Shown: positions 33,736 to 62,562 of the stretch, piece by piece
Numbering within the stretch: position 1 is the first letter of the stretch
Layout: each line of letters begins with the position of its first letter
Assembly: GCA_013416485.1 (NCBI GenBank)
Contig: JACCEO010000001.1
Location: 62,001 to 126,000, forward strand
DNA length: 64,000 bases
Direction: 5' to 3'
DNA from: Alcaligenaceae bacterium
GTDB taxonomy: Bacteria; Pseudomonadota; Gammaproteobacteria; Burkholderiales; Burkholderiaceae_B
Notes under the pieces: model-generated
Databases searched by the model: none
Told to the model about the DNA's origin: nothing
The model's input: the letters and a program-made list of their open reading frames with translations, nothing else
Made by a program: the position numbers and the translations under genes

Positions 33736-34955
33736 TTCGTCAGCAAGGTCAGCGCCTGGCTAGCTGCCACCCATTCTTCATTGGTAGGCTCTACAGCAAT
33801 TATTACTGTGCTGTCTGGGGTGGAAATCACGGGAGCATTGTCAGCATTGGCGCCGTCGTTGATTTGCATGCCAAGAAACGCCAACGCGTCGCAAATGCGC
33901 TTGCGGATTTCGGCACTGTGTTCGCCTACACCAGCGGTGAAGACCAGCATATCCAGGCCACCCAGCACGGCGACCAGAGCGCCAATTTCACGCACGATAC
34001 GGCGCACGTATAACGCTAGAGCATCACGAGCACGGGCACCGGCTTCGCTGTCTTCGGACTCTAGGGGTAGCAGTACCCTAGGCTCGGATGAGGTTCCTGA
34101 AACTCCCAGCAGGCCTGACTTGTGGTAAAGCACTTGGCCTACTTCTGCCAGGGTCAGCTTCTCGATTTCCATTAGGTATAAGACCGCGCCAGGGTCCAGT
34201 GCGCCGGTGCGGGTGCCCATCATGAGGCCATCAAGCGCAGAAAACCCCATTGTGGTGGCGACACTTTTTAGGTTTTGCATGGCACACAGACTGGCGCCGC
34301 TGCCCAGGTGGGCAACGATGGTGCGGCCACATGCCAGATCACCATGTCGCTCGGGTAACGCCGTTGCCATGTAGTCATATGACAGGCCATGAAATCCGTA
34401 ACGGCGCAGGCCGCGTTCCCAGGCATCGTAAGGCAGGGGTAGTAATTGTTCGACCTTAGGCAGGGTGTGGTGGAAGGCGGTATCGAAACATGCCACCTGT
34501 GGCAGGTCTGGGCGTGACAGCAATAGTGTTTCTATGGCTTCCAGTGCAAAAGGCTGATGCAAAGGTGCCAACGGAATATAAGCTTTCAGGTCGTCTAGCA
34601 AGGCCTGATTCACCCTTACAGGAGCAAAGAATTTGTTGCCACCGTGCACGACACGATGCACTACGCTGTGCAGCTTGCGCCCATCCAGGCGTGCCAGTAC
34701 ACCTTGTTGGATACGTGCCAGTGCTGCGCTATAGGGACGCTCGGGATCTAGAGCTACCTGGATAGGGGTAATACCTGTTTCACCGTAAGTGGGTGCCGGT
34801 CCGCCTATGCCTTGTACCTTGCCGTTCCAGACAGGCGTACGTTGTAAGTCTGAACCTGCAGCGTCAAACAGTGCAAATTTAATACTGGATGAGCCGCAGT
34901 TAAGAACAAGAATAAGATCGCCCCGAGTGGCGTATCGGTCAGTGAGTAGACTCAT
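33732..34955 (-). CDS. ackA: Acetate kinase
   Basis: A 407-residue acetate kinase that makes ATP and acetate from acetyl phosphate. The N-terminal LVLNCGSSSIKFALF, the central ACFDTAFHHTLP and RRYGFHGLSYDY, HLGSGASLCAM, and MGTRTGALDPG motifs are all present. It is the last gene of the minus-strand cluster and its ATG overlaps the stop of the MaoC-Pta fusion gene (ATGA), so the two steps of the Pta-AckA route are translationally coupled. A paralogous propionate kinase is unlikely given the neighbour. Confidence 0.95.
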   Translation of the reverse strand: MSLLTDRYATRGDLILVLNCGSSSIKFALFDAAGSDLQRTPVWNGKVQGIGGPAPTYGETGITPIQVALDPERPYSAALARIQQGVLARLDGRKLHSVVHRVVHGGNKFFAPVRVNQALLDDLKAYIPLAPLHQPFALEAIETLLLSRPDLPQVACFDTAFHHTLPKVEQLLPLPYDAWERGLRRYGFHGLSYDYMATALPERHGDLACGRTIVAHLGSGASLCAMQNLKSVATTMGFSALDGLMMGTRTGALDPGAVLYLMEIEKLTLAEVGQVLYHKSGLLGVSGTSSEPRVLLPLESEDSEAGARARDALALYVRRIVREIGALVAVLGGLDMLVFTAGVGEHSAEIRKRICDALAFLGMQINDGANADNAPVISTPDSTVIIAVEPTNEEWVAASQALTLLTN

Positions 34956-36397
34956 GGAGGGGTGTTCCGATAAGAATGTGCAATTAAGACAGCAATGGCG
35001 CAGGAAGCAATACGGGTTTCGCGTGAGTCAGCACGGCTGGTCAGGACGATAGGGACTTTAGCACCAAGTACTATGCCAGCGCTGGCCGCATTGCCCATGT
35101 ATTCAAGCTGCTTGGCAAGTATGTTGCCACTTTCAAGATCGGGGGCCACGAGTACGTCGGCTTGGCCTGCCACTTCTGACTGTATGCCTTTGATGCGGGC
35201 AGCCGCAGGGGAAACTGCATTATCAAATGCCAGTGGCCCGTCAAGCAGACCACCAGAGATCTGACCACGATCGGCCATTTTGCACAATGCCGCGGCATCT
35301 AGTGTGGCGGGCATGGAGGGTGTAATGGTTTCAACAGCAGCCAGTATGGCGACGCGAGGTTCTTCAACACCTATGATGTGTGCAAGGTCTATCGCGTTGC
35401 GAATGATGTCGGCTTTTTCTTCTAAAGTGGGTGCGATGTTAATGGCCGCATCAGTAATAATGAAAGGCCGTGGGTAGGCTGGGGTCTGCATTAAATAACA
35501 ATGGCTGAAGCGGCGCTTGGTGCGTAAGCCTGCTTTGGAAGCCACGATAGCACCCATGAATTCGTCGGTGTGCAGACAACCCTTCATTAAGGCCTCGACC
35601 TCGCCTTTGCCTGCCATTTCCGCTGCACGTGTGGCGGCCGCATGGCTATGCGGTACGTCTTCAATGATGATGCCGTCCAAGTTTAGACCGGCTTCGGCAG
35701 CTACGGCTTGTAGTCGTGAGTGCGGGGCGACCAGTACAGGTTCGATCAGGCCCGCATGCTTAGCGTCCAATGCTGCCGTTAAGCTTAATGCGTCGCAGGG
35801 GTGTACGACAGCCATCCGAATAGGATTGAAGGAACGAACATGGGAGAGTAAACGTTCTAGGCCGTGACCCGTTGTGGTTTCTAGGCGAACCTCAGGTAAG
35901 GTGGCGCGGTCCAGTTCGATACGTTCGGTGGGGGCGATGACATCGACCTGGCCGTCGATAACGGTTTCATCTTCCTGGTTCACACATAGGCAATCCAGGG
36001 TGACTCGTTTGGTGTCCGGATCAAGGGCACTTACGGTAACGCGGATGTGCAAGGTGTCACCTAAGTTGACTGGCTTTAGGAAGCGCAGGTCTTGGCGTAA
36101 ATAGACGGTGCCTGGACCAGGTAGACGGGTACCTAGTACACCGGAAATCAGGCCACCACCCCACATTCCTTGGGCGATAACGCCTTGGCTGTGATTCGAT
36201 GCTGCGCGTTCGGATTGAATATGAGGAGGCTTGAGGTCGCCCGCTTGCAACGCAAAGAACTGGATGTCTTCGACAGTCAGTGTGCGCTCGACGCTGGCGC
36301 TGTCGCCTACAGAAAGTTCATCAAACGTATGGTTGCGTAATACCCCTAGCTCTGGGTCAGAGTGACTACTTTTGGGGAGGGTTTGGTTTTGCTGCAT
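34952..36397 (-). CDS. MaoC hydratase-phosphotransacetylase fusion
   Basis: A 481-residue two-domain protein. Residues about 15-155 form a MaoC-like hot-dog domain (FDELSVGDSASVERTLT, QGMWGGGLISGVLGTRLPG). Residues about 170-475 are a phosphate acetyl/butyryltransferase domain (VVHPCDALSLTAALDAKHAGL, VLVAPDLESGNILAKQLEYM). The fusion is a known architecture (bifunctional enoyl-CoA hydratase/phosphate acetyltransferase) found in Burkholderiales next to acetate kinase. It would form acetyl or acyl phosphate for AckA; the role of the MaoC part is not established. By eye the usual Asp-His dyad of an active hydratase is not obvious in the N-terminal half. Confidence 0.9.
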   Translation of the reverse strand: MQQNQTLPKSSHSDPELGVLRNHTFDELSVGDSASVERTLTVEDIQFFALQAGDLKPPHIQSERAASNHSQGVIAQGMWGGGLISGVLGTRLPGPGTVYLRQDLRFLKPVNLGDTLHIRVTVSALDPDTKRVTLDCLCVNQEDETVIDGQVDVIAPTERIELDRATLPEVRLETTTGHGLERLLSHVRSFNPIRMAVVHPCDALSLTAALDAKHAGLIEPVLVAPHSRLQAVAAEAGLNLDGIIIEDVPHSHAAATRAAEMAGKGEVEALMKGCLHTDEFMGAIVASKAGLRTKRRFSHCYLMQTPAYPRPFIITDAAINIAPTLEEKADIIRNAIDLAHIIGVEEPRVAILAAVETITPSMPATLDAAALCKMADRGQISGGLLDGPLAFDNAVSPAAARIKGIQSEVAGQADVLVAPDLESGNILAKQLEYMGNAASAGIVLGAKVPIVLTSRADSRETRIASCAIAVLIAHSYRNTPP

Positions 36398-36451
36398 AAG
36401 ACCTCAGAATGATCAAATCGAATAAGGAAAGCTTTTGGTTGTTTGTACGTT

Positions 36452-37195
36452 TTAATACATGTGCTGGCCGCCATTTATGGCCACATTACTACCCGTCATG
36501 AAAGCGCCAGCGTCACTGACAATGAAGGCGATCAAAGCAGCAACTTCTTCGGGTTTGCCCAGACGGCCTACTGGAATACCGGCAACGATTTGCTCCATGA
36601 CGTTCTCGGGAACCGAAGTGACCATTTCAGTGGCTAAGTAGCCCGGTGAAACGGTATTGACAGTAATGCCTTTTCTGGCCACTTCTTGGGCTAGCGACTT
36701 CGTGAAGCCATGAATGCCGGCTTTGGACGCGGAGTAGTTGGTTTGGCCAAACTGACCTTTGCTAGCGTTGACTGACGAAATATTGACGATACGACCCCAG
36801 CCGCGCTCCAGCATGCTGTCAATCAGGGGTTTGGTCATGTTGTATAGGGAGTCCAGGTTGGTGCGCAATACCGCATCCCAGTTCAGCTTACTCATTTTGC
36901 GGAAAGTACCATCGCGGGTAATGCCTGCATTGTTGATCAGGATATCGACGTGGTGGCCATCGGCATGAAGTTTGTCGGCCATCGCCTGACATAGCGTGTC
37001 GTCAGCGACATCCGTCGCATAAGCAGTAAAGGTATAGCCTTCGGATTTTTGTTGTGCTAACCAGGTGTCTACGTGCTGGTGGTTGGGAGTATGGGTTACC
37101 AAGACGGTATGCCCCTCGTTGTGCAGTAACCGAGCTATTGTGGTGCCCAAGCCACCCATACCGCCGGTGATCAGTGCGGTGCGTTGTTGAGTCAT
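36452..37195 (-). CDS. phaB: Acetoacetyl-CoA reductase
   Basis: A 247-residue SDR of the PhaB/PhbB type, giving (R)-3-hydroxybutyryl-CoA for polyhydroxybutyrate. The cofactor motif is TGGMGGLG (about 10-17), followed by NNAGITRDGTFRKM, NISSVN and the catalytic NYSASK. The NAGITRD-FRKM segment is typical of acetoacetyl-CoA reductases. Start ATG with GGAG about nine bases upstream. Its own 87-bp leader contains a 14-bp palindrome. It lies in the PhaC-FabI-PhaB-Pta-AckA cluster. Confidence 0.9.
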   Translation of the reverse strand: MTQQRTALITGGMGGLGTTIARLLHNEGHTVLVTHTPNHQHVDTWLAQQKSEGYTFTAYATDVADDTLCQAMADKLHADGHHVDILINNAGITRDGTFRKMSKLNWDAVLRTNLDSLYNMTKPLIDSMLERGWGRIVNISSVNASKGQFGQTNYSASKAGIHGFTKSLAQEVARKGITVNTVSPGYLATEMVTSVPENVMEQIVAGIPVGRLGKPEEVAALIAFIVSDAGAFMTGSNVAINGGQHMY

Positions 37196-37251
37196 GTTGC
37201 TTACTCCGTATGATAATGGGTGTAGATATCAAGCCGTTTGTATGATGTGCG

Positions 37252-37265
37252 TAATGTTAACATTA
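37252..37265. promoter_or_regulatory. 14-bp perfect palindrome upstream of phaB
   Basis: TAATGTTAACATTA, centred 63 bp upstream of the phaB start in the gap after fabI. Its core TGTTAACA recurs in the leader of the PHA synthase gene (39573-39580), so both may bind one regulator. No known consensus is recognised. Confidence 0.45.
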
Positions 37266-37282
37266 GTAACAGTTGGCACAGT

Positions 37283-38047
37283 TCAATTCAGGATGTGAAA
37301 TCCGCCGTCCACGTATTGAGTGGTGCCAGTAATGGCACGGGCACCATCACTGGCTAAAAAAGCACAAAGAGGACCAACATCGTCTATGGTGAGGGCGCCG
37401 CGCATAGGCATACGCTGCTGACTGTCGATGATCATGGTGTCCAGGCTGGCTAATCCGGAAGCGGCTCGCGTTAAGATGGGGCCCGGTGAAATTGTGTTGA
37501 CACGAATTCCGGCAGCTCCTAGTTCCAGGGCTAGGTAACGCACGCTGGATTCTAGGGCGGCCTTGACGGGACCCATAATGCCATAGCCAGGAATGACCTC
37601 TTCACTACCGATATAGCTCATGGTCATTAAACTGCCGCCGTTTGTCATTAAGGGCTCTGCCAGGCGGGCCATGCGCATGAATGAATGGCAAGAGACATCC
37701 ATAGCTTGCAGGAAACCCTCGGGGGAACTGTCTACTACCCGTCCGTGCAGGTCCTGCTTGGGGGCGAAGGCAATGGAGTGCAGAAGAAAGTCCAGACGTC
37801 CCCAGCGTTGTTTAATGGTGTCGAACACCGCCTGCAATTGGGCTGGATCGGTAACGTCCAAAGGCATTTGAATATCAGTGCCTATCTGCTGCAGCAAGGG
37901 TTCTACATAAGGGCGAGAACGTTCAGTTTGCCAGGTTGCAGCAAGTTCAGCGCCTTGCTCGTGAAAGGCACGGGCACACGCCCAAGCAATGCTATCTTGG
38001 TTAGCGATACCAACAATTAAGCCTTTTTTACCAGTGAGTTGTTTCAT
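37283..38047 (-). CDS. fabI: Enoyl-ACP reductase FabI-like
   Basis: A 254-residue FabI-type NADH-dependent enoyl-ACP reductase. It has the divergent cofactor motif GIANQDSIAWACAR and the catalytic Y-X6-K (YGIMGPVK) that distinguishes FabI from classical SDRs. The gene lies only three bases downstream of the PHA synthase gene, so it is co-translated with it. A second, housekeeping fabI is expected elsewhere in the genome; this copy belongs to the PHA/acetate cluster and may act on CoA-linked rather than ACP-linked substrates. That is inferred. Confidence 0.9.
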   Translation of the reverse strand: MKQLTGKKGLIVGIANQDSIAWACARAFHEQGAELAATWQTERSRPYVEPLLQQIGTDIQMPLDVTDPAQLQAVFDTIKQRWGRLDFLLHSIAFAPKQDLHGRVVDSSPEGFLQAMDVSCHSFMRMARLAEPLMTNGGSLMTMSYIGSEEVIPGYGIMGPVKAALESSVRYLALELGAAGIRVNTISPGPILTRAASGLASLDTMIIDSQQRMPMRGALTIDDVGPLCAFLASDGARAITGTTQYVDGGFHILN

Positions 38048-38050
38048 GTT

Positions 38051-39556
38051 TTAGCGTTCTTTAACGTAGTTGCCAGGAGCATCGGCAATGACAGCGTAGC
38101 CATTGTCGGGTGCGCCCATAGAAGGAGGGTTTACTTTGGTGCCAGAGCGTGCCTGTAGCCAGCGTAACCATTCTGGCCACCAGGACCCAGATTGCATAGG
38201 TGCCTGTGCGACCCATTCGTCAGGGGTAATGGCTTTGGCGCCAAAAGGACGAGTTTTGACCTGATATTGGCGACGGGGATGACCAGGCTGGCTAATAATG
38301 CCGGCGTTGTGACCACCATTAGTAAGTGCAAAGGTAATTTCAGCTGGCGATAGCGTATGCAGCTTGTAGGCTGACTTCCAAGGTGCGACGTGGTCACTTA
38401 GGGTGCCAACGGCGAATATCGGTAGGGCTAAATCAGTGAGTGAAATCGGGCGATCTTTGACGCAGTAGTGGCCCTGGGCAAGGTCATTATGCAGATACAG
38501 ACGGCGTAAATACTGGGAATGCATACGTGCTGGCATGCGTGTGGTGTCTGCGTTCCATGCCATGAGGTCATTCATGGGCTGTCGATCACCTAGTGCGTAT
38601 TCGTTAATAAGACGGGACCAAAGCAAGTCATAGGAGCGCAGCATCACAAATGCGGTAGCCATTTGTTCACCACTAAGATAGCCCTTTTGTTGCATTTGTA
38701 CGTCTAGCATGTCCAGCTGTTTTTCACTGATATACAGGCTGAGTTCGCCGGGCTCACTGAAGTCAGTCTGTGCGGCTAGCATGCTTAAGGAAGCTAAGGT
38801 GTCGCCTGCGCCGTCACGTGTCATGGTGGCAGCGGCTATGGACAATAAGGTGCCGCCTAGACAATATCCTGTGGCATGTACCTTTTGATTGGGAACAATG
38901 GCGTTAACCGCATTCAAGGCGGCGTAAAAACCTAGCTCAAGGTAGTCATCCATACCCATGTCCCGATGTTCAGCGCCTGGGTTTACCCAGGAAATACAAA
39001 ACACAGTATGCCCTTGGTCGACCAAGTATTTGATTAAGGAATTGTGTTGTGACAGATCCAGGATGTAGTACTTCATGATCCAGGCAGGCACAATTAAAAT
39101 GGGTTCTGGATGGACTTTTTTTGTGGTTGGCGTGTATTGAATCAATTCCATTAAGGGGGTGCGCAGAACCACTTTTCCTGGTGTGGCGGCAACTTCCTGA
39201 CCAACAGTAAAGGCTTCAGTCCCGGCTGGGGGACGGCCTGAAAATAGGCGATTGAAGTCGTCCTTCAGGTGTTCTAGACCTCGTTGCAGGTTGGCGCCAT
39301 GTTCATCGTGTGTACGTTTCAATACAACAGGGTTGGTCATAGGCCAGTTGCCTGGCGAATAGAATTCCAACCACTGGTTAATAGCAAAAGCCAGTACCTT
39401 CTGATCGCGCTCTTCGACCCCCTGCATGCCTTGGGCGGTTTGGTTCCACCATTGCTGTTGCAGTAGAAAATAGTCACGCCAAAGGGCGTAAGGTGCTTGT
39501 TCCCAAGCGGGATCATTAAAGCGGCGTTGATTTATCTTTTTATTTATATCCTGCAC
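38051..39556 (-). CDS. phaC: Polyhydroxyalkanoate synthase (class I-like, short N terminus)
   Basis: A 501-residue PHA synthase that polymerises (R)-3-hydroxyacyl-CoA. The lipase-like box is GYCLGG with the catalytic Cys232; the Asp is in GTLSDHVAPWKS and the His in NGGHNAGI. The protein begins almost at the conserved RRFNDPAW segment, so the usual first 80 or so residues of class I enzymes are missing. The start is a GTG at 39556 with AGGGA five bases upstream. It is the first gene of the cluster with fabI, phaB, the MaoC-Pta fusion and ackA. Equivalent clusters in related bacteria are known to respond to low oxygen, but no convincing FNR/Anr box is visible here. Confidence 0.9.
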   Translation of the reverse strand: MQDINKKINQRRFNDPAWEQAPYALWRDYFLLQQQWWNQTAQGMQGVEERDQKVLAFAINQWLEFYSPGNWPMTNPVVLKRTHDEHGANLQRGLEHLKDDFNRLFSGRPPAGTEAFTVGQEVAATPGKVVLRTPLMELIQYTPTTKKVHPEPILIVPAWIMKYYILDLSQHNSLIKYLVDQGHTVFCISWVNPGAEHRDMGMDDYLELGFYAALNAVNAIVPNQKVHATGYCLGGTLLSIAAATMTRDGAGDTLASLSMLAAQTDFSEPGELSLYISEKQLDMLDVQMQQKGYLSGEQMATAFVMLRSYDLLWSRLINEYALGDRQPMNDLMAWNADTTRMPARMHSQYLRRLYLHNDLAQGHYCVKDRPISLTDLALPIFAVGTLSDHVAPWKSAYKLHTLSPAEITFALTNGGHNAGIISQPGHPRRQYQVKTRPFGAKAITPDEWVAQAPMQSGSWWPEWLRWLQARSGTKVNPPSMGAPDNGYAVIADAPGNYVKER

Positions 39557-39698: not shown

Positions 39699-42050
39699 AT
39701 GCATCCACGTTTGACCCCCGGCAGCGTAGAGCGTACCCAATTACTGGAACGCTTGAAAAAAGCGCGTCACAAAACCTGTTTGTTAATTCACGGACCAGCG
39801 GGCAGTGGTAAGACGTCGCTTGCTATACAGTGGCGGGCAGTGGCATTGACCTTGGGTCATGACATCGCCTGGTTAGCGGTGCAGTCGCGCGATGGTCGCC
39901 AAGACCTGCTGCATGATTTGTTCGATGCACTGGATGGTGTGGATCCAGACTTGTCTCGTGAAGGGCGGTTTTTGTATAACCGGGGCGGTACCGCACGCCA
40001 TGACGCGATTGTACTGGCGCTGTTGCGGGCACAGCTATTGCGCACACGACCCTTGACGCTTGTTATTGATGACTGGCAATACGCCAGTACGGTCAATGCC
40101 AATATGGTATTACAGACCTTGCTGGATTGCGCACCAGAAAATTTGCACGTGGTTATTGTGTCGCGTAGTGTTTCAGGGATTGCACTGGCACGCTTACGGG
40201 ATCAAAGACAACTTGAAGAAATTGGGCCATACGACCTGCGGTTTTCCCTAGAGGAAGTGCAAGCCTTTATTCGACCCAGGCAGTCTGACGATAGCCCGGT
40301 GGATGCACGCAAACTACTGGAAATGACTGATGGCTGGGCAGCAGGCTTACGCTTGGTGGCGTGGCAGCCCTTGGCCCCTACAGCACCGGTACAAAATGCA
40401 CAGGACTTTACGGCGTATTTTAATCGCGAGGTGCTTTCCCATCTTGATGATGCGGATATTGGGACTATGTGCCGTTTGGCTGCCGCATCAGGATTTAACG
40501 TGTCCTTGGCGGCTACGCTGGCCGGCGATCAGCAAGGGCCTTTGTTGGTACGTCGTTTGCATGATAATAATTTGTTTGTTACCTCACAAAGGGATGCGGT
40601 AAATGATGCCTGGTATGTCTTCCACCCTTTGTTCCGGGAGTTATTACTAGAGCGATTTCAGCGCTTGCGGTCTGAAGAGCAGCGCCGTACCCATCTGATC
40701 TTTACGCAGTGGTTTGGTGCGAAACGTCATCTGCAGGATGCGGTTTACCATGCAATGGCGGCGGGGGATCACCAGCAAGCGGTACTTTGGGTAGAGCGAT
40801 GGGCACGTGAGCTCTTCTTGAACGGCGAGTTGCAGCAATTGGCACGGTCAGTGGCAAAACTGCCCCTTAATGCGTTGTATGCCCACCCTTCGTTATTGTT
40901 GTGGCAGGGCTGGACTCAGCTTTGCTACCATCAGTTTTCTGCGTGTCACGATACCCTGGCGCTGTTGGCACCGCGGATTAACGGGACTAGTGCTGCCGAA
41001 CGTGACAGGCACGCGCATTGGTTATTGCTGTCATTTTCCTTGGCTTTACAAGAAGAAAACATAGATGCAGCCTTAACTATGTTGCCCGATATGCTGAACT
41101 TGCGGCAAGGGACAGATGCGGTGTTGATCGGTGGGCGGCGCAACTTGCTGGGCTGGCTGTATACCCGTGTTGGCCAATATGAGCACGCAAGAAAAATCTT
41201 ACAAGGCCAAGCCCCGTTACTAGAAGGCGGAAAACCCTTGTTGGGTTCGGCATTTGGCCACATTATTACGCGATCTTTGTATGGTTTATCTTGGTTGTTC
41301 CAAGGGGATGTCCGACAAGCCGAACCCGCATTGCGCGAAGCCTTGTCGCAAGCAGAGGCAGATCTGGGCCGTTATAACGAATCTACTTGCAATGCAGCTG
41401 CCTATGTATCCGCCGTGTTGTATGAAACCAATGAGCTAGAGGCCTTGCATGGCTTGCTTGAAGGGCGCCTTGATGCCATCGAGCGCGTCGCCTTACCTGA
41501 TGCGCTGGTAACCGTGGCCTTGTCGTTTGCGCGATTGCGTTGCTCAGAGGGTAATCCCCTGGAAGCCATTGAGGGCCTGGAAAGACTGGAAGAAATGGCC
41601 AGTAAGCGCTCTTTAGATCGCCTGCTGGCGTTTTCCTTAAGCGAGCGGGTGCGTTGTTTGCTACAAGCGGGGGACTACCCCGCAGCACAAACCGTTTTAC
41701 AGCAACTGTTATTTTTAGCAGCACGGCACAGCCACCAAACAGGCGCCATCAGCCGGCGGGTAAAAGGCTTGGCGCACTATACTGTAGTGCTTTACCGAGT
41801 GGCTATGAACGAGGATCAAGCCGCGCTAGACCTGCTTATGACAGAAGACGGCGACATATGCCTGGGTCGGGATGTCTACGGCATGCGCCTATTAAAGGCG
41901 CTGCTGCTTAAACGCACAGGCGAGCACGAACTTGCCCTATCTGCCATGCATCCGGTCTTGTTGCAGAGTCAGGCCTGTGGTCTAGTGCGCACGTTGCTGG
42001 ATTTTGGCAAACCTATGTTAGATCTGGCTCAAGACTGTGCACGACTGTGA
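39699..42050 (+). pseudogene. LuxR-type ATPase regulator, 5' part, interrupted by IS
   Basis: This 783-codon ORF is the N-terminal part of a MalT/LAL-type regulator. It has a P-loop HGPAGSGKTS (about 31-40), a Walker B LVIDDW and a long helical, TPR-like sensor region up to its end, but no helix-turn-helix. After Arg782 the frame runs into the inserted element and stops one codon later. Joining it to the fragment at 43806-44129, and removing one copy of the 16-bp duplication, gives a continuous 884-residue protein of the usual length with a C-terminal LuxR domain. It lies divergently from phaC and upstream of the TRAP/kinase operon, so it probably controlled one of them. The truncated product could still be made but could not bind DNA through its normal domain. 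Confidence 0.88.
42030..42045. repeat. Target-site duplication, left copy
   Basis: CAAGACTGTGCACGAC occurs here and identically at 43806-43821, flanking the insertion sequence. The 16-bp length is longer than most IS duplications; long duplications are a known trait of some IS1202-like elements. Confidence 0.9.
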
Positions 42051-42094
42051 TTACCAAGGGAAACTGGCGGACTAATTGCCAAGGGACTTTGTCG
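42046..42094. repeat. IS left end with two iterated motif copies
   Basis: Two copies of a motif of the form TTACCAAGGGA-N-TGGCGG / TTGCCAAGGGA-N-TTGTCG lie at 42051-42070 and 42076-42094, about 25 bp apart. They match inverted copies at the right end and are probably transposase-binding sites. Confidence 0.7.
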
Positions 42095-42141
42095 TAGCAG
42101 CGTACAAGCAGCCCGGTGATTAAGCAATGGGCGAGGCATCG

Positions 42142-43665
42142 TTATGCGGCGGCTTGCGATGCTTTTGCTCTGTGCACCCGTAAGGCGCTGGTGTTCATTT
42201 TTTCCCTGAGCCATACATGCCGCACGCCCGCGGGACTGATTTCAAGCTGGTGAGTCGTTTTCAGTTGAGCCGATACCTGCACCTGGCCTAAATGCGGGTT
42301 CTCCAACGAGAAGGCAATGATCACCTCTTCCGTGCTTTGAGCGGTTCGGTTTTTGTGGTGGATCTCAGGGCGAAATGTGCGCTTCAGCGCCAAGGGGCCT
42401 TTTTCTTTGAGCAGCCTTCGGTTTTTGTAGATCGTTTCGCGGGAGCAGCCACTGATGCGTGCAGCCTCGGCGACATTACCCAACGTGTCCGCGAGCGCGA
42501 TAGCATCCAGTTTCCGTTGAATTTCCAAGTCATACATAGACGGCTTGGTGGGTTCTATCACCTCAGAAATCGCGAGGTGACGACCGGCAAAGTGGGCGGT
42601 GAAGCGGCCGCCCGATTGCTTACGGATCTCTATGCTCTGCTTGGCAATCGAGTGCTTGAGCGGGGACTCAATCAAGTAAAACTTGTTGCCATAGCTGAAC
42701 GTATGATCGTTGCGGATTTTACGATGCTCTTTTTGCACACAGATGTCATCTAGATTCAGGTGGCGCGGCACAAGCGTAAATTCTGAGGCGGTATTTTTAG
42801 CCTTGACGACAATGGTTTGTTGCCAGTATTGAGGAATAAAAATGGTTTGCAGGTAGTGGTTGGCACTTTGCATGTCCGTAATATTTCGCAGGCGTAACTC
42901 AGGCACCAGGCGGTCCTGAAACGTATCAAAAGAACGCTCAATGCGCCCTTTACCCTGCGGGGAATTGGCGAAGATAATTTCGATGCCAAGCTCTTCGCAG
43001 GCGCGTTGCATTTGAGAGAAGTTGCAACGCTTGGGCCCACCGAAGATACCCGCCCTATCCACGTACAGGGCTTTAAACAGCCCTTTCTGTTCAATGTAGT
43101 GCTGCATGACTTTTAGGCAGCCCAGCGTCGTTTCGGACTCAAAGAACTCGGCATGGATTTCGCTGGTCGCATCATCAATGAGGGCAATCAGACACGACGT
43201 CTTGCCGCCGAACCAGCGGTGAGGGCTGCCGTCCATTTGCAAGAGCAACCCCGCCGACTCCATTCTTTCTCGTCGTTTACGTATCTGCGAACGGCGCCGT
43301 TTAGCGCGCTTCACATGGTGAATATCATGGGCCCAGGCTCGCAGCGTCTCGCGTTTCACCTGGATGCCTTCATTCCGCTCCATGAGTTCGGCCAGATGCT
43401 GCAAATTCACATCGTAGTATTTGTCTTTGATAAGGGACTGCACCCGTCTTTTAAGGTCGTCAGGCGTTTTATTGGCTGGCGATCGGCCCGTATTGCGGTG
43501 AATCACGAACTGAATGCCGACGTCCTCGTAGCGTTGGAGATATCGCTCAATCGTGCGGCGAGACTTATTCAAGAGCTTGGCCGCATTGGCAATGCTGATC
43601 TTGCTTTGTGCGACTTTAGAGACCACATCAGCGGTGAGTTGGGCTTTGGAATCCAAAATAATCAT
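42142..43665 (-). CDS. DDE transposase, ISNCY/IS1202-like
   Basis: A 507-residue transposase. The N terminus has a helix-turn-helix (SIANAAKLLNKSRRTIERYL) and a second DNA-binding part. The integrase-type catalytic core includes LLQMDGSPHRWFGG (first Asp), ALYVDRAGIFGGPKR (second Asp) and SPQGKGRIERSFDTFQDRL (Glu in the third position). This spacing and the QGKGRIER motif are characteristic of the ISNCY/IS1202 group. The start is uncertain: the ATG at 43665 (GGAG ten bases upstream) or a GTG at 43689. No internal stop or frameshift is seen, so the element is probably active. Confidence 0.88.
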   Translation of the reverse strand: MIILDSKAQLTADVVSKVAQSKISIANAAKLLNKSRRTIERYLQRYEDVGIQFVIHRNTGRSPANKTPDDLKRRVQSLIKDKYYDVNLQHLAELMERNEGIQVKRETLRAWAHDIHHVKRAKRRRSQIRKRRERMESAGLLLQMDGSPHRWFGGKTSCLIALIDDATSEIHAEFFESETTLGCLKVMQHYIEQKGLFKALYVDRAGIFGGPKRCNFSQMQRACEELGIEIIFANSPQGKGRIERSFDTFQDRLVPELRLRNITDMQSANHYLQTIFIPQYWQQTIVVKAKNTASEFTLVPRHLNLDDICVQKEHRKIRNDHTFSYGNKFYLIESPLKHSIAKQSIEIRKQSGGRFTAHFAGRHLAISEVIEPTKPSMYDLEIQRKLDAIALADTLGNVAEAARISGCSRETIYKNRRLLKEKGPLALKRTFRPEIHHKNRTAQSTEEVIIAFSLENPHLGQVQVSAQLKTTHQLEISPAGVRHVWLREKMNTSALRVHRAKASQAAA

Positions 43666-43724
43666 CCTTCGCGATCTCCGAATAGGCACAATGGAATATT
43701 CAGAGAATCACTGATCACATAGAT

Positions 43725-43805
43725 CCGTCAATTTCCCTCGGTAATTAACCCATGCGACAAAATCGCTTGGTAATTAAAGTACGACAAAGTCGCTTGGTGT
43801 TCACA
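43725..43805. repeat. IS right end with three iterated motif copies
   Basis: Three inverted copies of the left-end motif lie at 43725-43746, 43755-43775 and 43782-43805, 27-30 bp apart (on the minus strand they read ACCAAGCGA-N-TTGTCG, with the innermost ACCGAGGGA-N-TTGACGG). The asymmetric arrangement, two copies left and three right, resembles transposase-binding arrays in other elements. Confidence 0.7.
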
Positions 43806-43821
43806 CAAGACTGTGCACGAC
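43806..43821. repeat. Target-site duplication, right copy
   Basis: CAAGACTGTGCACGAC, identical to 42030-42045 on the other side of the insertion sequence. Both copies encode QDCAR in the same reading frame of the split regulator. Confidence 0.9.
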
Positions 43822-44129
43822 ACTACCAAGAGCAAGACCCGATACTGTTGTATTACGTAGAGCAGTTGTATGTACAGGCTCACTATCAGCCAGTGATTCA
43901 GAACACCCCTTTACAGTTGGTCGAGCCCTTATCGGACCGTGAGCAAGATGTCCTTAATGCCTTGGCCTATAGCATGTCGAATAAACGTATAGCAAAGGTG
44001 CTGGGGGTTTCGCCTGAAACCGTTAAATGGCATTTGCGTAATATTTACGGAAAGTTGAACGTAGCTGGGCGTGATGATGCTGTTGCCCGAGCCCGAGACA
44101 TGGGCTTGGTAATAAACCAAATTATTTAG
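43806..44129 (+). pseudogene. LuxR-type regulator, 3' part with DNA-binding domain
   Basis: The 3' fragment of the interrupted regulator encodes QDCARHYQEQDP onward and a complete LuxR helix-turn-helix (about the last 65 residues: LSDREQDVLNALA, RIAKVLGVSPETVKWHLRNIYGKL). An ORF extends into the IS with an ATG at 43752, giving a 125-residue product, but no ribosome-binding site precedes it. If expressed it would be a free DNA-binding domain without ATPase or sensor control. I treat it as a gene fragment. Confidence 0.85.
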
Positions 44130-61683: not shown

Positions 61684-62562
61684 ATGAAAAATACCGATAC
61701 TGGCTTTTCCCTTTCACGTCGTCAAATGACGCAAGCCGCTGTGGCATCTGCTCTGGGCTTGGCGCTGCCTGCAGCAGCGATTGCACAGACAGCCGCGCCT
61801 GCGGGCGGGACAGAATCCACCCTAGAACGTGTGCGTCGTACCAAAAAATTGCGTATCGCTGCCTTAGTCGGTGAGCCGCCTTACTTCGCCAAAGACCCCT
61901 TAACAGGCGTTTGGCATGGCGCAGCCGTTGAAATGGCAAAAGACATTGCCACTATCCTGGATGTCGAGCTGGAAATGGTGGACTCCACCTACGGCAACTC
62001 GGTAATACAACTGCAAACTGGCAAGGTAGACTTGGCTATGGCCTTGACGCCGACACCGCAGCGCGCCTTGTCTATCGACTTTTCCCATCCTACCTATTTG
62101 CACCCTTATGGTCTGGTCAGCAATAAAGACATCAATGTGTCTACCTGGGAAGAACTTAACCAGTCTGACCTGAAAATTGCGGTTGACTTGGGTTCCACGC
62201 AAGAAATGCTGGCACGTCGTTTGGCACCTAACGCCAAAATTACTGCCTATGCTACTCGTGATGACGTCATGATGGCTTTGCAAAGCAAGCGTGTTGATTG
62301 CGCCGTATTCGCTGTTCTGCTGGGTCTGACCGCGGTGAAGAAGAACCCCTCGATAGGCAAGTTCTCTATGCTGAAAGAGCCCGTCATCGGCTTGACCTCG
62401 GCGTTGGCGTTTTCTAAAGAAAGCAACACAGACTTTGCTAATTTCCTGAACGTTTGGGTGGACTACAACCGTAGCTTGGGCCAAATTCAGGAATGGATAT
62501 TTGATGGTTTGAAACTGTCAGGCGTAGAACGTAACGATATCCCTTCAGACGTCGTATTCTAA
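61684..62562 (+). CDS. Amino acid ABC transporter substrate-binding protein
   Basis: A 292-residue family 3 binding protein. The N terminus has a twin-arginine motif (SRRQMTQAA) and a hydrophobic stretch ending AIAQ, so export may be by Tat. The ligand-binding region includes LRIAALVGEPPYFAKDP and LTPTPQRALSIDFSHP with the conserved Arg. The TPTPQR segment supports an amino-acid-like ligand with a free carboxylate. AGAGA lies before the ATG. Confidence 0.9.
   Translation: MKNTDTGFSLSRRQMTQAAVASALGLALPAAAIAQTAAPAGGTESTLERVRRTKKLRIAALVGEPPYFAKDPLTGVWHGAAVEMAKDIATILDVELEMVDSTYGNSVIQLQTGKVDLAMALTPTPQRALSIDFSHPTYLHPYGLVSNKDINVSTWEELNQSDLKIAVDLGSTQEMLARRLAPNAKITAYATRDDVMMALQSKRVDCAVFAVLLGLTAVKKNPSIGKFSMLKEPVIGLTSALAFSKESNTDFANFLNVWVDYNRSLGQIQEWIFDGLKLSGVERNDIPSDVVF

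Follow-up and report, generated by a model that had tools for sequence, protein, structure and literature searches.

The 64,000-nucleotide stretch of Alcaligenaceae bacterium contig JACCEO010000001.1 analysed here (positions 62,001 to 126,000, hereafter the window) carries a gene for a LuxR/LAL-type regulator that is split by an insertion sequence (IS) of the IS1202 family (Table 1). A 16-bp sequence, CAAGACTGTGCACGAC, stands on either side of 1760 bp, and its two copies are identical at 16/16 positions, which bears out the exact target site duplication (TSD) described in the initial annotation. The element has the ends TGTGA...TCACA, its inverted repeats match at 18/26 bases, and it is single-copy in the source genome (48 contigs searched). 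The event had also been called recent; the identical TSD and the intact transposase frame fit that view, but 16 bp is too short for dating. No empty site was seen in a sister strain, the single same-genus genome searched having no match to the N-terminal part of the regulator.

Table 1. Features of the split regulator gene and of the inserted element (window coordinates).
Feature	Position	Strand	Basis or remark
Regulator, N-terminal part, 782 codons	39699..42045	+	Frame ends within the IS, at the stop at 42050
TSD, copy 1	42030..42045	.	Repeat pair
IS1202-family IS, 1760 bp	42046..43805	-	TSD pair and ends; relatives built alike
Left terminal inverted repeat, transposase-distal	42046..42071	+	18/26 bases in common with the other end
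Inner end-repeat copy, left side	42078..42094	+	2 mismatches to the unit
Transposase, 515 codons from GTG at 43689	42142..43689	-	NF033594, 409 bits; D153, D211, E251, Q258
Transposase C-terminal domain, aa 390-498, proposed target reader	42196..42522	-	Related to the IS481 N-terminal DNA-binding region
Inner end-repeat copy, right side	43755..43771	-	Weaker further copy at 43726-43742, 5 mismatches
Right terminal inverted repeat, transposase-proximal	43780..43805	-	18/26 match to the left end
TSD, copy 2	43806..43821	.	Repeat pair
Transposase-proximal flank, place of the target motif in relatives	43822..43857	-	Motif only partly kept in the window
Regulator, C-terminal part with LuxR helix-turn-helix	43822..44129	+	Open reading frame from ATG 43752 (IS end) runs into it

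When the element and one TSD copy are removed, a single 884-codon frame results, with its sole stop at the end and the joint AQDCARHYQEQ. Profile searches identified AAA_16 above its cut-off and a MalT-like TPR region (TPR_MalT) slightly below it in the N-terminal part, and GerE, the LuxR helix-turn-helix (HTH), in the C-terminal part. The joined chain of 884 amino acids (aa) has the P-loop ATPase, TPR region and C-terminal LuxR HTH of the LAL regulators (about 900 aa), in agreement with the initial annotation; it does not belong to MalT itself (201.7 bits for the N-terminal part, curated cut-off 537). The N-terminal part was matched in 8 of the 61 genomes searched, the source genome counted. 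The alignment with intact homologues that had been proposed as a check gave one alignment over residues 10-877 with a 907-aa frame in genome G022 (40%, 599 bits) and again a single alignment with a 941-aa frame in genome G031 (29%, 284 bits), and both cover the joint. Because the rejoined protein aligns in one piece with uninterrupted homologues, the regulator was once a single gene. That the two reading frames are separate genes and the 1.76 kb between them ancestral has a negligible probability: nothing was found in its favour, the TSD is perfect, further hosts carry the element between different flanks, and the intact homologues spanning the joint rule out two separate ancestral genes. The insertion has cut the regulator into a predicted ATPase/TPR part without an HTH and a predicted HTH part; its function has presumably been lost, and regulation in this strain would be changed. 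No promoter-like site was found by a promoter scan of 43600-43900 at the IS end.

The assignment to the IS1202 group made at first reading was confirmed on the features tested, which Harmer et al. give for the family (PMC10132070). The transposase scores 409.3 bits with NF033594, the ISNCY/IS1202-type model (cut-off 250), and has a DDE triad followed by a Q at E+7, assigned by motif in the window protein. Its frame is intact, and the start common to relatives, an ATG at 43665, gives a protein of 507 aa. The ends are of the TGT/ACA type with an imperfect inverted repeat in the expected range of about 24-28 bp, and inner copies of the end repeat are present, a single one near the left end and, near the right end, a clear and a weak one. 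The 16-bp TSD, which had been noted as unusual although reported for the IS1202 group, is usual in the long-TSD subgroup (16-28 bp): the long-TSD elements ISShha1, ISVbsp4 and ISVisp7, of 1737-1742 bp with transposases of 504-507 aa, all have a 16-bp TSD (Table 7 of PMC10132070). Compared by description, the window element resembles these three in size, TSD and transposase length, TGT/ACA ends, inner repeats and the Q at E+7. The window transposase falls outside the IS481 family (145.5 bits with the IS481 model, cut-off 224). Nor is the insertion of the dif-targeting ISAjo2 type, which has a TSD of 3-5 bp beside a dif-like site: the TSD here is 16 bp and no dif-like flank was recognised by eye. 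In the accessible part of the IS481EU paper (PMC10045372), IS1202 sits inside IS481 in the tree, with TSD lengths that differ by about 10 bp, and targets are not mentioned there.

Related insertions were collected from genomes at several levels. Matches were found in 2 of 399 genomes of the window's order (1e-60) and in 15 of 369 of its class (1e-40), its own genome included in both, in 16 of 394 genomes around G770 (1e-100), and, at 1e-150, in 11 of 246, 16 of 227 and 1 of 74 genomes of three family samples, which overlap with the earlier matches. Further loci came from genome contigs (2), from the 8 top-ranked of 3119 plasmid records and from one viral contig. A plasmid DNA search with 41800-44100 and a search of viral contigs with a single transposase protein gave nothing useful, and a phage search gave only two distant matches. 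Among the 56 rows examined, window included, a TSD was verified in 34 (16 bp long in 20 rows and 17 bp in 14; 2 mismatches were permitted and no more than 1 occurred). The same element build recurs in other hosts with different flanks. For motif analysis the window and two duplicate flanks (L078 and L093) were dropped, leaving 31 insertions, 11 in transposase clade A and 20 in clade B; a Xenorhabdus fragment (L053) without a TSD was excluded.

At these 31 non-duplicate insertions with a verified TSD of 16-17 bp, a motif stands at a fixed distance on the transposase-proximal side. Read in the orientation of the transposase, the 20 bases that precede the TSD carry 19.3 bits of information in clade A, and the TSD itself carries 13.5 bits. 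In clade B the three 20-base blocks ahead of the TSD carry 6.7, 11.5 and 11.5 bits, and the TSD carries 0.7; the far side of the insertions holds 0.9-2.4 bits per 20 bases. The clade-A consensus is TGTCAGA.CAAGTCTGAACTA.TACA, and TGnnA at -18..-14 together with CA at the TSD centre occurs in 11/11 clade-A sites, while GTCC or GGGC at about -18..-14 occurs in 18/20 clade-B sites. We left out whole flank clusters in turn and ranked each true site within its own locus. Over -36..+8, all 11 clade-A sites and 16 of the 20 clade-B sites ranked in the top 1% (11/11 and 18/20 in the top 5%), and cluster medians were below 5% for 4/4 clusters in clade A and 9/11 in clade B. Over -22..-1, the figures were 11/11 for clade A and 16/20 (top 1%) or 17/20 (top 5%) for clade B, with 4/4 and 8/11 clusters. 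This strict test on verified sites supersedes an early pooled test that assumed the TSD length where it was unverified (-36..+8: 31/46 sites below 1% and 36/46 below 5%; -31..-1: 24 and 36; window site at 6-9%). Comparison across the loci shows that insertion by this subgroup is not random, the target being marked by the motif on the transposase-proximal side. Two other candidates for the target were set aside: a copy of the element's own end, considered by eye only and dropped, and, for clade B, an integron attC site, for which no consistent GTTRRRY box was seen by eye. No Rfam family was matched in 14 loci, and the flanks of four copies of a distant 411-aa relative in genome G050 had no evident common motif by eye.

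The two motifs follow the transposases. In a tree of 36 transposases (30 different), clades A and B are separated at 100/100 support, and the window transposase lies in A. The A motif is found in 11 of 15 clade-A rows, the rest being the window, one locus with a recombined flank (L025) and two without a readable left flank; the B motif is found in 19 of 21 clade-B rows, with L051 and L079 as the exceptions. Of 23 further loci, mostly fragments, 16 have a readable left flank, and in all of these the protein groups with the clade to which the flank, judged by eye, points. The clade of five loci (L064, L066, L069, L076 and L091) had been set for the motif test beforehand, and a later protein comparison agrees. 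The clades differ most in the C-terminal region, whose halves are 45% and 31% identical between A and B, versus 66% for the N-terminal HTH, 77% for the DDE core and 50% for the linker.

The clade-A motif lies at the ends of other ISs. At locus L047 the target is an IS481-family element (NF033577, 295 bits) with both ends present and its own 7-bp repeat, ACTAAAG, and the TSD of the IS1202-type element consists of the last 8 bases of the IS481 and 8 bases of its flank. A second IS481 with both ends, at L066, has the 7-bp repeat CATGAGA and shows the same geometry of 8+8 bases. The tips deduced here for the L047 IS481 agree with three plasmid records, whose matches span exactly query positions 11-1216, and another record is annotated as ISSod13-like (3-1222). 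The best matches of six hand-picked, transposase-looking flanking reading frames were to IS481 (4), IS30 (1) and IS5 (1), with those at L047 (IS481) and L065 (IS30) above curated cut-offs and the others being fragments. The other clade-A loci have an end-like motif, and no transposase was recognised among their listed reading frames, which were not scanned. Comparison of the loci shows the usual target of clade A to be the outer end of another IS, chiefly of IS481 type, and at the two complete IS481 copies the staggered cut is centred on the IS tip. In the titles and abstract openings of the literature surveyed, we found no report that IS1202-family elements target IS481 ends, nor one of the domain likeness described below.

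The common flanks might instead merely reflect the piling up of ISs in IS-rich regions, the element inserting unselectively like an ordinary IS. The window site, which lies in a gene and fits the clade motif poorly, would suit this explanation, as would the long-TSD members reported without a target in the available text of PMC10132070. It is nevertheless improbable in view of the fixed distance and orientation, the exact position at the IS tip and the ranks of sites from left-out clusters, which rule out unselective insertion for the subgroup as a whole. Furthermore, genome G1574 contains six copies, four of which have near-identical 3' target motifs yet differing outer flanks.

A candidate for the reader of the target is the C-terminal domain of the transposase. 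In the window protein it aligns with aa 9-116 of the L047 IS481 transposase (34%, E 3e-17), and the C-terminal domain of the IS1202-type transposase at L047 itself matches that protein at 42% (E 1e-23). Against the same IS481 transposase, the C-terminal domains of six clade-A proteins score 68-88 bits and those of four clade-B proteins 55-63 bits, and the N-terminal domains of these ten score at most 34 bits. Taken alone, the C-terminal part finds IS481 model positions 2-111 best (E 1.6e-16), then IS630 (3e-7) and its own family model (0.007). The domain was undetected in 13/13 distant relatives (L027 and L041 partial), three of which match the IS481 domain with their N-terminal part, weakly and over short stretches. 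An AlphaFold model of moderate quality (mean pLDDT 71.6, pTM 0.43) shows the C-terminal region as two helical bundles; the top Foldseek structures were IstA, CAST TnsB and MuA, with low TM-scores, and a sequence search of solved structures gave no credible match. Homology shows the domain to be related to the DNA-binding region of the IS481 transposase, and it may aim the element at its target.

The account that we favour, and consider moderately probable, is that an IS1202 element of the long-TSD subgroup with a transposase of about 505 aa inserted into the LuxR/LAL regulator gene and duplicated 16 bp, its clade targeting IS ends through the IS481-type C-terminal domain. This domain would bind an IS481-type end in the target DNA and, once bound, would set strand transfer at a distance of 8 bp on each side of the IS tip; the window copy would have used a degenerate site. 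It is about evenly balanced whether this DDE lineage gained the end-binding domain of a rival, IS481, as a C-terminal target finder and so parasitises IS ends, with divergence having re-aimed the sister clade.

Several observations weigh against this account. The window site lies in a gene and not at an IS end, and it lacks the T at -18 and the A at -14 that are found in 11/11 clade-A sites. Window positions that score as well as the site itself make up 15-39% with the A matrix, 2.4-2.7% with the B matrix and 1.8-4.0% with both. The clade-A sites form just four flank clusters, one of which holds seven sites, and the two exceptional clade-B sites lack the core motif. Finally, the N-terminal part of the window transposase is itself weakly IS481-like (31 bits; IS481 model over aa 22-276), and because of this common descent explains part of the likeness of the C-terminal domain.

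The same N-terminal likeness would suit a second explanation, that targeting is real and has a different reader, either a host or IS481 protein on the site or the N-terminal HTH guiding the transposase. Harmer et al. propose, in the available text, contact with XerC for the dif-targeting ISAjo2-type elements (PMC10132070), and ends of IS30 and IS5 type are also targeted here. We regard a different reader as unlikely, if clearly less so than unselective insertion, given that the C-terminal domain is specific to the subgroup among the relatives tested, that its nearest match is the protein binding the commonest target, and that it has diverged between clades whose targets differ.

At the window site, the bases retained are the G at -17, the GTC at -17..-15 and, in the middle of the TSD, CA. 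GTC and CA in this spacing occur at 159 of 124,388 window positions, this core having been chosen post hoc and GTC being present in only part of clade A. A search of the source genome at E 1e-40, which overlooks fragments (a known fragment in G1235 was not returned), yielded no IS481, and no IS481-type end was found there at fewer than 3 mismatches; its two matches with 3 mismatches equal the reversed-pattern control. The window copy is probably an off-target insertion at a degenerate site.

In the available portions of the family-naming paper, no target was found for the long-TSD subgroup (PMC10132070); a target motif for these elements and an IS481-type C-terminal domain are added here. The ISAjo2-type elements are alike in family, in their single orientation and in their fixed distance from the target (PMC10132070), and differ in their TSD of 3-5 bp, transposases of 441-457 aa and dif-like target, as against TSDs of 16-17 bp and IS ends or the clade-B motif here. 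According to the accessible descriptions, IS4321 and IS5075 of the IS1111 family, which are aimed at the terminal inverted repeats of the Tn21 family, are likewise elements that target the ends of another; IS1111/IS110 transposases are of the DEDD type and RNA-guided, unlike the DDE transposase of the window subgroup. The homology of the C-terminal domain is to the IS481 family (ISSod13-like), which is also a main clade-A target. A split regulator by itself is an ordinary consequence of IS insertion, and a family assignment alone is ordinary too. If the C-terminal domain is the reader, the site preference would be explained by a visible domain gain, target choice by a DDE transposase would become directly testable, and the system would offer a natural design for protein-guided insertion; if the domain gain is true, it would be a natural case of a transposase whose target is set by an added domain. 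Landing in the tip of another IS may also disable that IS.

Several loci show further peculiarities. L069 (G1003) is a shortened IS copy of 862 bp that retains both ends and is flanked by a perfect 16-bp TSD; it may be a non-autonomous derivative mobilised in trans. L025 and L039 (G751) have a common right flank and different left flanks, as after recombination between copies. The closest relative found is represented by a fragment, L022 (JACCEP010000005.1, Alcaligenaceae bacterium CGII-56), which matches at 85-86% over about 100 aa; the flank of L022 has the clade-A motif and adjoins an apparent split IS256-type transposase gene, as seen by eye. At L048 (Pseudoalteromonas sp. CuT4-3), a second stretch resembling the right end of the IS lies directly past the TSD, and the locus may for this reason be rearranged. 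Among clade-B insertions, L058 and L061 have an IS481-like end in the far (right) flank, and a BLAST search with the L061 flank gave nothing useful. The left flanks of L090, L091, L092, L094 and L095 (G1574 and G1482) contain a diverged intergenic repeat, about 100 bp long, that has the clade-B target at its end; the L094 repeat stretch is matched by 48 plasmid records, mostly from Vibrio, and the five inspected adjoin accessory genes.

In the window, the split regulator gene lies between a PHA synthase/acetoacetyl-CoA reductase cluster on one side and a TRAP transporter, acyl-CoA dehydrogenase and enoyl-CoA hydratase set on the other. At 34952-39556, the PHA synthase stands beside a FabI-type enoyl reductase, an acetoacetyl-CoA reductase and a fused enoyl-CoA hydratase/phosphate acetyltransferase.

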